A DNA stretch of 43,720 nucleotides from a virus, in IMG/VR virus record IMGVR_UViG_3300037189_014561, positions 1 to 43,720 of that record; one strand, written 5' to 3'. This document shows, in pieces, positions 1 through 4,802 of this stretch (the stretch's first letter is position 1; the number at the start of each line of letters is the position of its first letter). Made by a program: the position numbers and the translations under genes. The notes beneath the pieces were generated by a model. That model did no database searches, had not been told where the DNA came from, and saw nothing but the letters and a program-made list of their open reading frames with translations.

Positions 1-87
1 AATGCTTGAGTACTTTCTTTCCATGGTTGTCACCGAGTATACCAATCTCCTCGATCCTACCTGTGGTAGCGGTACTGCTATTCGAGC
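1..87. repeat. Left copy of 87-bp terminal direct repeat
   Basis: Bases 1-87 are identical to 43634-43720. Joining the copies restores one reading frame, so the unique circle is 43,633 bp. This may be true terminal redundancy, circular permutation, or a k-mer-sized assembly overlap; sequence alone cannot tell which. Confidence 0.97.
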
Positions 88-208
88 TGGAGCAAAGCTT
101 GGTGCTCGTAGTGCGCTCGGACTCGAACTTAATCCAACTGTTGCCGCTACCTCTGCCACCAAACTTTCCCTCTTCCTTGAAAGAATGAAAAATGAGTCTG
201 AGTCTTGA
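1..208 (+). CDS. ParB-DNA methyltransferase fusion, C-terminal end (gene starts at 42408)
   Basis: This is the continuation of the gene that starts at 42408 and runs off the right end. Joined, the protein is 477 residues. This part holds the AdoMet-binding motif DPTCGSGTA (about residues 427-435) followed by the acidic GLELNP strand end, both typical of DNA adenine/N4-cytosine methyltransferases. In the full protein this motif lies C-terminal to the catalytic DFPY motif, the order of the beta class. The stop overlaps the start of the next gene at 192. Confidence 0.9.
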   Translation, partial: MLEYFLSMVVTEYTNLLDPTCGSGTAIRAGAKLGARSALGLELNPTVAATSATKLSLFLERMKNESES

Positions 209-422
209 GAATTCCATCAAAGAAACCATCGCAAAAATTAAAGAGGAGAACCTCCGTCCGGCGGAAGAGATAAGGGTCGCGGAACGCCTCATTCTCTCCG
301 GCCTCACTCTCGTCCTCCAACATCAAGCCGCAGGCACCGGAACCGATGCACAGCTCCTCGACGTCGCCTACACCGTCAAAAGACTCGCCGACAGCCTCGT
401 CGCAAGGATTGCGAAAGGGTAA
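192..422 (+). CDS. Small hypothetical protein, 76 aa
   Basis: Unrecognised. It starts inside the 3' end of the methyltransferase gene and is predicted mostly helical, with charged N-terminal heptads (KETIAKIKEENLRPAEE) and a hydrophobic LILSGLTLVLQ segment. It has no Cys pairs or catalytic motif. The downstream UDG-exonuclease frame overlaps its 3' end, so it probably belongs to the same polycistronic replication message. Confidence 0.65.
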   Translation: MSLSLENSIKETIAKIKEENLRPAEEIRVAERLILSGLTLVLQHQAAGTGTDAQLLDVAYTVKRLADSLVARIAKG

Positions 423-1554
423 ACTTTTCACCTTCGTTGGCGAGTTTTACTCCCAGGCCGATGAGATAGCGCAAAGGCCCTTCTTTGGCTCCGGCGGACA
501 AGAACTCACCCGACTCACGAGGGAGGTCGGGATCAACCTCAGCGATTGCTCCCTCACCAACGTCTTCAACCTAAGGCCCCCAAACAATGACCTTCGATCC
601 TTCTGTGTCTCCAAAGCTGCAGCAGTGCATTCTTTCACTGGAGAACGACCCAAGCTTCTTGAACAATTCCCCGAGTATCCTTGGCCACAGGCCTACGACT
701 TCCCCCCAATCCTGGGGGCGGGAGGTTTTCTGCATCCTGCGTACCTCGGACACTTGGCAACCCTTCGAAGACATATCCTGGAACACAACCCAAAGCTGGT
801 TATTGGAATGGGAAACGTCGCAACCTGGGCTCTTCTTCGTGCTACCGGCATTGGAAAGCTACGAGGGTATTCTTTTCCTCTCACCTTTCTTCCTGGAGGA
901 CCACGAGTCGTTCCTACCTACACCCCTACCAGCTGCCTACAGCAGTACGCTCATCGACCAGTTGTTATCGCAGATCTCCGAAAAGCGGTACGGCTGGCGT
1001 CCGGAGGCACTGCTCTTCACTCCTCCCTTCAACTGGCTGGACATATCCGGACTCTATGGATTGAACCAAGCCTTGAAGATCTCGAGACCTGGAGGAGCAA
1101 GTTTGTCAGCGTGGCCTCGCAACGTGTCTCAATCGACATTGAAACCTTTGGAGGCACCATCACCTGCATTGGGTTTGGGACCGAGCGCTCGGCAATCTGT
1201 GTCCCCTTTTGGCTCCGTTCTCATGAAGGATCTTCGGCCGACCTCGACGGAAGGTCGTACTGGGCAACTCCGGGTGAGGAGGCCCTCGCCCTCAGCTGGG
1301 TACGATCCCTTCTAGAGAGTCCGAACCCGAAAGTCTTGCAGAACGCCCAGTACGATCTGCAGTACTTATGGAGAACCTGGGGGATGGTGCCGAAGGGCAC
1401 CATCCACGACACCATGCTGATGGCCCACGCCCTGCAACCAGAGATGGAGAAGGGGCTGGGCTTTCTTGGCTCTGCGTACACAGATAGCCCTGCATGGAAG
1501 CACCTCAGAAAGGTCTCCGACCAAAGAGCAAAGATGGAGAAGAAAGATGCCTGA
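346..1554 (+). CDS. Uracil-DNA glycosylase-like domain fused to N-terminal part of a DEDD 3'-5' exonuclease (DNA polymerase, first piece)
   Basis: The protein has up to 402 residues. Residues ~30-215 resemble the UDG superfamily: an NVFNLRPPNND segment near residue 72 and a TYTPTSCLQQY segment near 191, the positions of the usual NxxxxRPP and HPS motifs. Residues ~255-400 are a polymerase-I-type proofreading exonuclease: Exo I SIDIET (D264, E266), Exo II LQNAQYDLQYL (D337), then HDTMLMAHALQPE. Exo III is missing here and sits at the start of the polymerase protein encoded at 1958, so the exonuclease domain is split between two polypeptides. SPO1-type phage polymerases have the same UDG-Exo-Pol domain order. 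The ATG at 346 overlaps the preceding gene by 77 nt; a TTG at 409 just before the conserved FTFVGEF is an alternative start. Confidence 0.85.
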   Translation: MHSSSTSPTPSKDSPTASSQGLRKGKLFTFVGEFYSQADEIAQRPFFGSGGQELTRLTREVGINLSDCSLTNVFNLRPPNNDLRSFCVSKAAAVHSFTGERPKLLEQFPEYPWPQAYDFPPILGAGGFLHPAYLGHLATLRRHILEHNPKLVIGMGNVATWALLRATGIGKLRGYSFPLTFLPGGPRVVPTYTPTSCLQQYAHRPVVIADLRKAVRLASGGTALHSSLQLAGHIRTLWIEPSLEDLETWRSKFVSVASQRVSIDIETFGGTITCIGFGTERSAICVPFWLRSHEGSSADLDGRSYWATPGEEALALSWVRSLLESPNPKVLQNAQYDLQYLWRTWGMVPKGTIHDTMLMAHALQPEMEKGLGFLGSAYTDSPAWKHLRKVSDQRAKMEKKDA

Positions 1555-1765
1555 AGAAAACATTCGATACTGGGTCATTCTGGCTGCAGTTTTCCTTGTC
1601 CTCATCATTCCACTCATCGGAATCAACTACGGCGCAGAGCGCTACAAGTGCTCCACCGTGGCGAAGGAGTTAGAGCGGGAATACAAAATCAGCACTGTCT
1701 ACGGTTGCCTCATCAAGACCAAGGATGGTTACGTCCCCCTGAGCCAGATGAGGTTTCAGCCATGA
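1547..1765 (+). CDS. Small single-pass membrane protein, 72 aa, inserted in the polymerase locus
   Basis: The ATG at 1547 lies within the last codons of the UDG-exonuclease gene. Residues ~8-28 form one hydrophobic segment (YWVILAAVFLVLIIPLIGI), followed by a short charged domain with two Cys. Function is unknown. The stop overlaps the next start as ATGA, implying translational coupling. Together with the next gene it separates the two halves of the polymerase. Confidence 0.7.
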   Translation: MPEENIRYWVILAAVFLVLIIPLIGINYGAERYKCSTVAKELEREYKISTVYGCLIKTKDGYVPLSQMRFQP

Positions 1766-1983
1766 AAGCCCAAACCCGTCTGATGTCTTTCATCGAGGCC
1801 TGGAGTAACGTCGCCGTAGGTTTTGTTATCAATCTCTTCGCCAACCTACTCATACTCCCCCTTTTCGGCCTTCAAGTAACTCTTTCCGACGCCTTAGGGA
1901 TTGGGCTTGTATTCACAATCATTTCTGTGATAAGGTCATATCTCCTTCGCCGGTTTTATGAAAGGCTCCGTCTCCGTGGCTAA
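1762..1983 (+). CDS. DUF7220-like small membrane protein, 73 aa
   Basis: Starts at ATG 1762, overlapping the previous stop (ATGA). The pattern SFIEAWSNVAVGF...NLLILPLFG...LGIGLVFTIISVIRSYLLRRF, with two membrane segments and a basic C-terminus, matches a small phage protein family I recall as DUF7220 (from memory, not searched). Function is unknown; it likely sits in the host inner membrane. Its 3' end overlaps the start of the polymerase gene at 1958. Confidence 0.75.
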   Translation: MKAQTRLMSFIEAWSNVAVGFVINLFANLLILPLFGLQVTLSDALGIGLVFTIISVIRSYLLRRFYERLRLRG

Positions 1984-3487
1984 AATCATTGACTTTGAAG
2001 CCTTGAGTGACGAGGAGCTTTCCCTGAGTGCCGCCCACACCTACTGGGCCTACAACGCAGCCGACTGCCTCGTGACCTCAGAAATTGCACCAGTTCTTGA
2101 AAAACAGCTCGATGAACATTCGGGCTGGATTTACTACTTCGAGCGAGCGTGCCTTGCACCTGCCATGGAAATGGCGCTGAGGGGAATACGAGTCGATATG
2201 TTGGCGAAGGAGGACTTCGTCCGCCGACTCAGTGCTGACGCCGACCGCTACGAGGAAATCCTCTTGGAGTACGGAAGGGCCCTCGGGCACCCTGCAGGGA
2301 TCAATGCAAATTCCACTACCCAACTCAAAAAGATCTTTTATGACCAGCTCTTGCTTCCTGAGCAAAGGAAGTACGATAGAGCGAAGAAGGAGGAAAAAGT
2401 AAGTGTTGACCGTGAAGCTTTGGAGAAGCTCCAAGTGCACAAAATTGCCAACCCCCTCGTCCTTGCCATACTCGGCAGACGTGATTGCGTCAAAAAGCTG
2501 TCCGTCCTGCGCAGCGGAATTGACCGTGACTCTCGTATGCGTTTCTCCTTCAACGTCGGAGGAACAGAAACTGGTCGCTGGAGTTCGTCAAAGAATGCTT
2601 TCGGAGGCGGGATGAATGCCCAGAACCTCACCGAGGAGCTCAGGTACCTTTTCATCAGTTCATCTGGCAAGAAACTTGCATACATCGATCTCGAACAGGC
2701 AGAGAGTCGAGCAGTGGCTTACCTGTCGGGAGACAGGGGATATTGGGACGCTTGCAATTCGGGCGATCTTCACACCACAGTCACCAGGCTTATTTGGCCA
2801 AATCGAGGTTGGACAGGAAATCCTGCTGACGATCGTAAGCTCGCCGATGCCCCGTTTTATAGGCAATACTCCTACCGTGACATGGCTAAGAGAGGTGGAC
2901 ACGGATCTAACTACCTTGGTACCCCTCGAACAATGGCCAAGCATTTGAAGATCGAGCCGAAGATTATGGAAGACTTTCAATATGGCTACTTCAAGGCCTT
3001 CCCGGGCATCAAGCATTGGCATGAGAAGACCGCAAGTCAACTTCAGAGCAAAGGAAAGTTGATCACGCCTTTTGGCAGAGTCCGGCCATTTCTCAGCAGA
3101 TTGAATGATAATGCGACTATTAGGGAAGCCGTCGCCTACGTCCCCCAAAGCCTCATTGCCGACTACATGAATGCAGGAGTCTGCCGACTTTGGGATTGGG
3201 GGAAGGTGGATCTCCTTGCCCAGATCCATGACGCAGTGGTCTTTGAATACCCTGAAGGGCAGGATGCCCTCGTGGCCGAAGCGGCCACGATACTCTCAGC
3301 CCCCATCACCCTGATTAATGGAGATTCGTTCTCCATCCCTTGTGAGCCAAACGTGGGCTGGAATTGGGGGAAAGAGACCAAGGACAACCCACTTGGTCTC
3401 CGAAAGCTGAAGAAGGGAGATGACCGGAAGGGGCCTGTGGTGGGGGAGAATGTTGCGGCGGAGATCTTGGGTAGGGCGTTCAAATGA
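1958..3487 (+). CDS. Family A DNA polymerase (second piece: Exo III motif plus polymerase domain)
   Basis: The 509-residue protein replicates phage DNA. It opens with the end of an exonuclease domain: YNAAD at residues 32-36 is the Exo III motif that the upstream UDG-exonuclease protein lacks. Polymerase motif A is YIDLEQAESR (D244, E249). Motif B runs RDMAKRGGHGSNYLG (R307, K311, Y319). Motif C is QIHDAVVFEYP (D425), where the usual HDE is HDA. GGTETGRWSS near 201 is the conserved T-x-TGR-x-SS segment. The ATG at 1958 lacks a clear ribosome site; GTG at 1976, preceded by AAAGG, is a plausible alternative. Split from its exonuclease by the two membrane genes at 1547-1983. Confidence 0.93.
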   Translation: MKGSVSVAKIIDFEALSDEELSLSAAHTYWAYNAADCLVTSEIAPVLEKQLDEHSGWIYYFERACLAPAMEMALRGIRVDMLAKEDFVRRLSADADRYEEILLEYGRALGHPAGINANSTTQLKKIFYDQLLLPEQRKYDRAKKEEKVSVDREALEKLQVHKIANPLVLAILGRRDCVKKLSVLRSGIDRDSRMRFSFNVGGTETGRWSSSKNAFGGGMNAQNLTEELRYLFISSSGKKLAYIDLEQAESRAVAYLSGDRGYWDACNSGDLHTTVTRLIWPNRGWTGNPADDRKLADAPFYRQYSYRDMAKRGGHGSNYLGTPRTMAKHLKIEPKIMEDFQYGYFKAFPGIKHWHEKTASQLQSKGKLITPFGRVRPFLSRLNDNATIREAVAYVPQSLIADYMNAGVCRLWDWGKVDLLAQIHDAVVFEYPEGQDALVAEAATILSAPITLINGDSFSIPCEPNVGWNWGKETKDNPLGLRKLKKGDDRKGPVVGENVAAEILGRAFK

Positions 3488-3611: not shown

Positions 3612-4802
3612 ATGACCTCAACAAGAAAACTCAAGGCCTGGATACCCGCCTTCAGCGGGTACACTCAGCACATGGGTGTTCCGCCGCTGTGGAGAAGGTG
3701 GGCTGCAATCACCGCAATCTCCGGGGCACTTGAACGTAGGGCATATCTTCGTACAGCCAAAGGAGTCCTTATTCCTAATGTCTTCGTCCTCCTCGTCTCA
3801 CCCCCAGGAGTTGGAAAGTCTGTCATCATCAATGAAGTCTTCCACTTCTGGCAGAAGGTTCCTGACCTCCGCATCGCCCCATCTTCTACGACCAGGGCTG
3901 GTCTTATTGACTTTATGGTGGATGCCAGAAAGATCGATGTTTCTGGAACTGTGCCTGTTGTTTATCATAGTGTCCTCTGTGCGTCTCCCGAGTTCGGAAA
4001 CCTCGTCCCCCAGTACGATAACGCCTGGCTCAACATTCTCAATGATCTTTACGATTGTGGCTCTCTCTTTTCTGATGTGACGAGGAAGTATGGAGAAATT
4101 AGAATTGAACACCCGCACCTTTGTATCTTGGCAGGTACACAACCCAAGTACCTTGACAATCTCCTCCCAGATGCGGCCTTTGGAATGGGATTCACCTCTC
4201 GCCTCGTCATGGCCTACGCACCCGCTGGAGCCTATACCTCCCTCTTCTCCAATGTCCAAAAGTCAGCTCAAGTCCACGACTTCCTTGTGGAGGATCTTAA
4301 GACTATCGGAAAGCTCCACGGAGAATTCTACCTCACCCCTGAAGCTCTTGAGCTCTGGGAGACTCTCGCTAAGGAGTCGTTCAAGCCGGTCCCGGAACAT
4401 TCCAAACTTCAGCATTATGTCTCGCGACGACCTGCTCATATCCTCAAAGCGATGATGTGTTTTAGTGCTTCGGAACGAGACGACCTGCGGATCACCGAGG
4501 ACCACATTGAGTCAGCAGTAAAGCTTCTTCACGATACGGAAAAGGAAATGCCTCAGATTTTCTCAGAGATGGTAACCAAGGGTTACGCAGACGCCAACGA
4601 GGAGACCCTCGCGCATGTCAAGGAGACGTTTAGACTTAATGGTGGCAAGCCGCTACAAGAAACAGCTCTTATCCGCTTTCTTGTGGGGAAAGTCCCAAAT
4701 AACCAAATCAAGCAAACAATTGACCTTCTCACTCAGTCAGGGCAGCTTAAACTACACGTTCTCACTACAGGAATTAGAGCTTATTCTCCTGCAGGTAAGT
4801 AG
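3612..4802 (+). CDS. DUF3987-like P-loop ATPase / replicative helicase candidate
   Basis: 396 residues. Walker A is SPPGVGKS (63-70), preceded by a hydrophobic strand (VFVLLVS). The downstream text (APSSTTRAGLIDFM, a CASPEFGNLV segment in the Walker B area, then HPHLCILAGTQPKYLDNLLPD and a GFTSRLVMAYAP segment) is the pattern of DUF3987-type phage primase-helicase proteins that take the place of DnaB-like helicases. The C-terminal ~80 residues look like a winged-helix tail (GGKPLQETALIRFLVGKV). It lies directly downstream of the polymerase, which supports a replication role. No separate primase was recognised. Confidence 0.75.
   Translation: MTSTRKLKAWIPAFSGYTQHMGVPPLWRRWAAITAISGALERRAYLRTAKGVLIPNVFVLLVSPPGVGKSVIINEVFHFWQKVPDLRIAPSSTTRAGLIDFMVDARKIDVSGTVPVVYHSVLCASPEFGNLVPQYDNAWLNILNDLYDCGSLFSDVTRKYGEIRIEHPHLCILAGTQPKYLDNLLPDAAFGMGFTSRLVMAYAPAGAYTSLFSNVQKSAQVHDFLVEDLKTIGKLHGEFYLTPEALELWETLAKESFKPVPEHSKLQHYVSRRPAHILKAMMCFSASERDDLRITEDHIESAVKLLHDTEKEMPQIFSEMVTKGYADANEETLAHVKETFRLNGGKPLQETALIRFLVGKVPNNQIKQTIDLLTQSGQLKLHVLTTGIRAYSPAGK

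Follow-up and report, generated by a model that had tools for sequence, protein, structure and literature searches.

In the T4-related Aeromonas phages 25 and 44RR, the family B DNA polymerase is split into gp43A and gp43B, and the two parts of the phage 25 enzyme co-purify and show polymerase activity (PMC2988022). The split ribonucleotide reductase NrdA of Aeh1 is likewise active after reassembly (PMC2988022). Among family A polymerases, the enzyme of the OM43 phages MEP401 and MEP402 and their relatives is encoded in two ORFs with a small ORF of unknown function in between (PMC10580990), and the polymerase of PaBG displays the domain order UDG-Exo-Pol (PMC7412058).

The locus described here lies in the IMG/VR virus record IMGVR_UViG_3300037189_014561, of which positions 1 to 43,720 were analysed; this whole stretch of 43,720 nucleotides is referred to as the window. 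According to the ORF list and Pfam, a tightly packed run of plus-strand genes encodes a UDG-exonuclease, two small membrane proteins and an Exo III-polymerase, flanked by the following neighbours:

2-208, plus strand: C-terminal end of a probable DNA methyltransferase, truncated by the window start (DPTCGSG motif; weak Pfam methyltransferase matches under the cut-off)
346-1554, plus strand: first piece (chain 1), UDG-like domain and exonuclease motifs I and II (PF03167, PF01612; TTG 409 is a possible start)
1547-1765, plus strand: junction gene 1, a 72-aa protein with one hydrophobic segment (ORF; no Pfam match)
1762-1983, plus strand: junction gene 2, a 73-aa small membrane protein, DUF7220 (PF23858, E 1.5e-29)
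1976-3487, plus strand: second piece (chain 2), exonuclease motif III and family A polymerase domain (PF00476; ATG 1958 is an alternative start)
3612-4802, plus strand: downstream neighbour, a DUF3987 protein (PF13148, E 2.1e-20)

Successive borders overlap by 8 nt (exonuclease stop and gene 1), by an ATGA (genes 1 and 2) and by 8 nt (gene 2 and polymerase gene), which gives the picture of translationally coupled genes. An earlier note, made from the letters of the window, had described two coupled membrane-protein genes overlapping both polymerase pieces, and these are indeed seen at 1547-1765 and 1762-1983. In Pfam, the protein encoded at 346-1554 matches UDG (PF03167, E 7.8e-8) and DNA_pol_A_exo1 (PF01612, E 4.5e-7), and that encoded at 1958-3487 matches DNA_pol_A (PF00476, E 3.2e-33). 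Since positions 558-789 of the phage DNA polymerase family PHROG 17 are covered by the first protein and positions 805-1240 by the second, the two together correspond to one polymerase. GTG 1976 is more likely to be the start of the polymerase gene than ATG 1958, because relatives start at the equivalent of VAKII. At the other end, a 76-aa ORF at 192-422 overlaps the start of the UDG-exonuclease gene (346-424). Due to the overlap with another ORF and to the low confidence of residues 1-21 of chain 1, many of which have a pLDDT below 50 in the AF2 model, it is uncertain whether this gene starts at ATG 346 or at the in-frame TTG 409. A DUF3987 protein is encoded 3' of the polymerase also in Kuura and Mel-JY34.

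The catalytic motifs are distributed over both chains (all on the plus strand; chain 2 numbered from ATG 1958; counts refer to aligned sequences):

1135-1143, plus strand: Exo I motif D264-I-E266 (D and E in 71/71)
1342-1356, plus strand: Exo II motif N333-x3-D337 (D in 71/71, N in 70/71)
1408-1410, plus strand: further conserved acid D355, in HDTM (71/71)
2051-2065, plus strand: Exo III motif Y32-x3-D36, 'YNAAD' (Y and D in 69/69)
2687-2704, plus strand: polymerase motif A, D244-LEQAE249 region (D in 69/69, E in 62/69)
2876-2914, plus strand: polymerase motif B, R307...K311...Y319 (R and K in 69/69; Y in 65 and F in 4 at position 319)
3227-3232, plus strand: polymerase motif C, H424-D425 (69/69)

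With a PF00476 domain carrying motifs A, B and C, chain 2 is a family A DNA polymerase of the Klenow type. The Exo I, II and III residues of a 3'-5' exonuclease are all present, but on two proteins, and UDG, Exo and Pol are not joined in one polypeptide: a stop and a start lie between the two ORFs. Where 65 of 71 relatives have the conserved UDG histidine, the window has Thr193 (922-924), a replacement that may have changed or abolished its uracil glycosylase activity.

Single-chain AF2 models reached a mean pLDDT of 86.9 for chain 1 and 92.3 for chain 2, with low predicted confidence beside the break, in the last 13 residues of chain 1 and the first 7 of chain 2. In structure comparisons, residues 23-228 of the chain 1 model match family 4 UDGs, and a further match is to the front part of the exonuclease domain of Klenow. 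Residues 6-482 of the chain 2 model align to Klenow residues 469-928 (Z 32.9), a range that contains Y497 and D501; chain 2 therefore includes this pair and the final portion of the exonuclease domain.

In order to place the arrangement among its relatives, two profile scans of viral contigs were used, with 591-592 relatives among the matches listed per scan. The best 80 of each were taken together with four loci from genome contigs, giving 134 deduplicated loci with both parts: four intact genes from GenBank, the window's own copy, a Vibrio phage locus broken elsewhere (L024) and 128 others. These 128 and the window, 129 split loci in total, all break at the same loop between Exo motifs II and III; the sample consists of nearest relatives, so that it does not measure how frequent intact genes are further out. 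The two closest relatives, L002 (72% identical in the first piece, 85% in the second) and L003 (66% and 79%), as well as distant ones of about 30-45% identity, have two pieces with corresponding ends. The gap between exonuclease and polymerase genes ranges from -8 to 1629 bp with a median of about 344 bp over the 129 loci; in 25 it is shorter than 60 bp, with nothing in the junction, and several of these are ATGA overlaps. The exo-loop split is common to a large group of phages, most of them uncultured. The division of the polymerase inside its exonuclease domain, with UDG, Exo I and Exo II apart from Exo III and the polymerase domain as the earlier note had described it, is borne out by Pfam, by the motifs and by 128 further loci. 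As the arrangement recurs in these other deduplicated loci, it is neither due to chance nor to an assembly error, which disposes of the proviso that a sequencing error might make it unique to this assembly.

In Caulobacter phage Kuura, a cultured member of the group, the UDG-exonuclease half (Kuura_029, L021:4273-5382) is annotated as a hypothetical protein and two further ORFs lie between it and the DNA polymerase gene; the Kuura paper speaks only of a DNA polymerase (PMC9959647).

A tree of 85 representatives was calculated from the exonuclease and polymerase columns, leaving out the junction. Of the 72 split rows in it, 71, among them the window, group in a single clade (SH-aLRT 99), and no re-fused gene is found inside that clade. 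The earlier note had proposed a search for unsplit relatives; intact UDG-Exo-Pol genes, Mel-JY34 and its kin, turned out to form the sister clade. An intact sister clade together with conserved catalytic residues points to a single ancestral gene that became neighbouring cistrons. The sister clade also includes two genes broken elsewhere, L024 (L024:2950-6084, Vibrio phage) and L209 (L209:3986-7361), in which the polymerase domain itself is broken and coding sequence separates the pieces. A scan started from intact genes gave either intact genes or this other kind of split. The one exception among the split rows, L188 (L188:4959-7884, on the contig of a Pseudomonadota MAG), is split at the same loop yet lies outside the split clade. 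As grouping it with the other split rows is rejected (AU p 0.009), L188 is likely to represent a second, independent fission at this loop, seen on a single contig and against a thin outgroup.

Between the window and L002 or L003, dN/dS amounts to 0.26 for chain 1 and 0.07-0.08 for chain 2; both genes are under purifying selection. The distance matrices of the two chains are similar (r = 0.80), a similarity that adjacency alone predicts.

The junctions of the 129 loci hold 169 ORFs in 96 similarity clusters. Recurrent cargo comprises DUF7768 (25 loci), DUF7220 (23, window included) and HNH endonucleases (12); the others are orphans. Mapped on the tree, DUF7220 requires 4 changes, HNH genes at least 6, empty gaps 11 and DUF7768 12, about as many as shuffled labels, so that a fixed split contrasts with cargo that is quickly replaced. 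Leaving the window aside, the gaps of the split loci (54 kb) contain 22 DUF7220 and 25 DUF7768 genes, with neither found in 598 kb of flank, an exclusivity that may be overstated, as gap members had served to build the profiles; HNH genes are found 12 times in gaps and 9 times in flanks, a density about 15 times that of the flanks. DUF7768 genes often lie directly before the polymerase gene (for example L043:2093-2431 and L117:3424-3945). The idea that the junction is an exceptional hot spot was rejected, as the junction upstream of the exonuclease gene equals or exceeds it in length (median 643 bp versus about 343 bp), and only the one downstream of the polymerase gene is tight. Since the upstream junction also holds inserts, the exo-pol junction is not alone in accepting new genes; it resembles any other intergenic site whose content changes quickly.

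In the window, junction gene 1 gives weak matches to PHROG families of unknown function (best E 2.9e-6), and no homologue was found among the other junction ORFs, whereas junction gene 2 has homologues in 22 other junctions. L002 and L003 carry other small ORFs in the gap. A relocation of DUF7220 to elsewhere in these two relatives was considered and rejected, as none was found in their records; none was found in that of Kuura either, though the control genomes of this search gave no signal as well. Also rejected was DUF7220 as a dedicated partner of the polymerase: among the best 80 DUF7220 loci in IMG/VR, none has such a polymerase in the flanks of up to 4 kb that were covered, and the neighbours are mainly N6_N4 methylase and ParB_N genes. 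Because cargo comes and goes and the nearest relatives have other ORFs with no DUF7220 found, the two membrane-protein genes are late passengers and not the cause of the split. The claim that they divide the polymerase consequently fails, as the split is clade-wide.

Taken together, these data point, with a probability of roughly 0.8, to a two-subunit, proofreading-competent family A polymerase that arose by an old fission in the Exo II-III loop and whose chains dock to share one exonuclease site. This reading is based on the shared break, the single clade (71 of 72), the conserved catalytic residues, purifying selection and cargo turnover; from them we infer chain association, nuclease activity and the event behind the original break. 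The gene would have been broken once in the ancestor of the large clade, and apparently a second time on the contig of L188. Chain 1 with UDG and Exo I/II and chain 2 with Exo III and the polymerase domain would be translated from neighbouring genes and dock to form a Klenow-like proofreading site, so that the holoenzyme could both polymerise and proofread. After the fission, the junction would have become an ordinary inter-gene site gaining and losing small genes, with the membrane-protein genes of the window as later arrivals. An extension of this reading, in which the polymerase is obligately two-chained throughout the lineage, proofreading is switched or exchanged via chain 1 and junction genes such as DUF7220 and DUF7768 act on assembly, is doubtful.

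A single normal polymerase could still be made if the gap were spliced out as an intron or the chains were joined by an intein or a frameshift. SPO1-like phages have introns in this gene, as judged from the reference list of PMC2988022, and the authors describing MEP401/402 proposed an intron for their split gene (PMC10580990). However, the Rfam scan of positions 1200-2300 gave sub-threshold matches only and no family, group I introns included, at gathering score. In 25 of the 129 loci there is no room for an insert, and such gaps of less than 60 bp, several with ATGA overlaps, argue for two separate products; elsewhere the protein genes in the gap differ from relative to relative and are unrelated. 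No intein family was found in the four window proteins or in ten junction proteins scanned, and a frameshift could join the chains of overlapping genes but could not bridge the gap of the window. In agreement with the earlier note, an intron can be excluded for practical purposes. That note had also stated that the halves must either meet or leave a dead exonuclease. Family A polymerases can function without an active exonuclease domain, as in Taq, and chain 1 evolves faster; chain 2 might thus polymerise alone, with chain 1 kept for a UDG or DNA-binding role. Against this, the exonuclease residues of the two chains vary little, if at all, in about 70 diverse sequences (69-71 per motif), and Thr193 counts against a UDG-only role. 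A dead exonuclease is therefore unlikely, and the first half of the statement agrees with site residues on both chains. These residues fit one active site, yet another function could preserve each chain.

As to how the two-chain gene originated, an HNH homing endonuclease gene may have been inserted and later lost and replaced. The enrichment of HNH genes in 12 of 129 gaps and the T4-related precedents mobE and seg43 (PMC2988022) speak for such an origin. However, the HNH genes are as scattered on the tree as shuffled labels and may for this reason be later invaders of an existing junction, as the endonuclease may likewise have invaded an already split gene in the T4-related cases (PMC2988022), and no intact allele is near enough to reveal an insertion site. 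We consider this origin tenable but somewhat against the odds; other candidates are a stop mutation and a duplication followed by partial loss. The membrane genes raise a different alternative, namely that DUF7220 and its small neighbour tether the split polymerase to the membrane. Apart from its occurrence in gaps, counted with a profile biased towards gap members, DUF7220 lies upstream of the polymerase gene in three sister-clade loci; in two of them it is situated just 5' of the intact gene and overlaps its ORF start (L022:2751-3029 and L205:3774-3998). It is, however, present in just 23 of the 129 split loci, the search of the L002, L003 and Kuura records found none, and its methylase and ParB neighbourhoods elsewhere hold no such polymerase within 4 kb. 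Of the membrane-linked polymerase suggested earlier, only a weak possibility is left: as an account of the locus tethering is very improbable, it could operate in the minority that carries DUF7220, and it cannot explain the split.

Family A polymerases do not usually divide their proofreading site between two proteins, as is proposed here, and more than 100 loci sample the clade in which this split has become fixed. The group offers a natural system for the tolerance of a polymerase to a cut through its exonuclease site, for a possible regulation of proofreading by the supply of one chain and for a broken gene becoming a site for new genes, with Kuura as a cultured test case. Because its UDG-Exo half is annotated as hypothetical, such phages may wrongly seem to lack proofreading.

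Compared with described systems, the locus resembles gp43A/43B in that two neighbouring cistrons, separated by a homing endonuclease gene or a spacer, encode a replicative polymerase. That enzyme, however, belongs to family B and is restricted to few phages, whereas the clade of the window has a family A polymerase with UDG, cut in the exonuclease active site, lineage-wide and with many junction genes. Aeh1 NrdA is also encoded in pieces, but is a ribonucleotide reductase split by a mobE insertion. Mel-JY34 and PaBG share the UDG-Exo-Pol order in one continuous gene, and the family A polymerase of phiLo (PDB 9qhs), which Foldseek ranks first among the whole-length matches of chain 1 (E 2e-10), is a single chain of 1122 residues in the library model. 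In MEP401/MEP402 the break lies within the polymerase domain and not in the exonuclease domain; L024 and L209 are of this type. No report of an exo-loop split in a family A phage polymerase was found in the open-access literature, and a jumbo-phage paper considered as such deals with other cases. In conclusion, family B offers known cases of split phage polymerases, and so does family A for breaks within the polymerase domain; what is new is a lineage-wide cut through the proofreading site.
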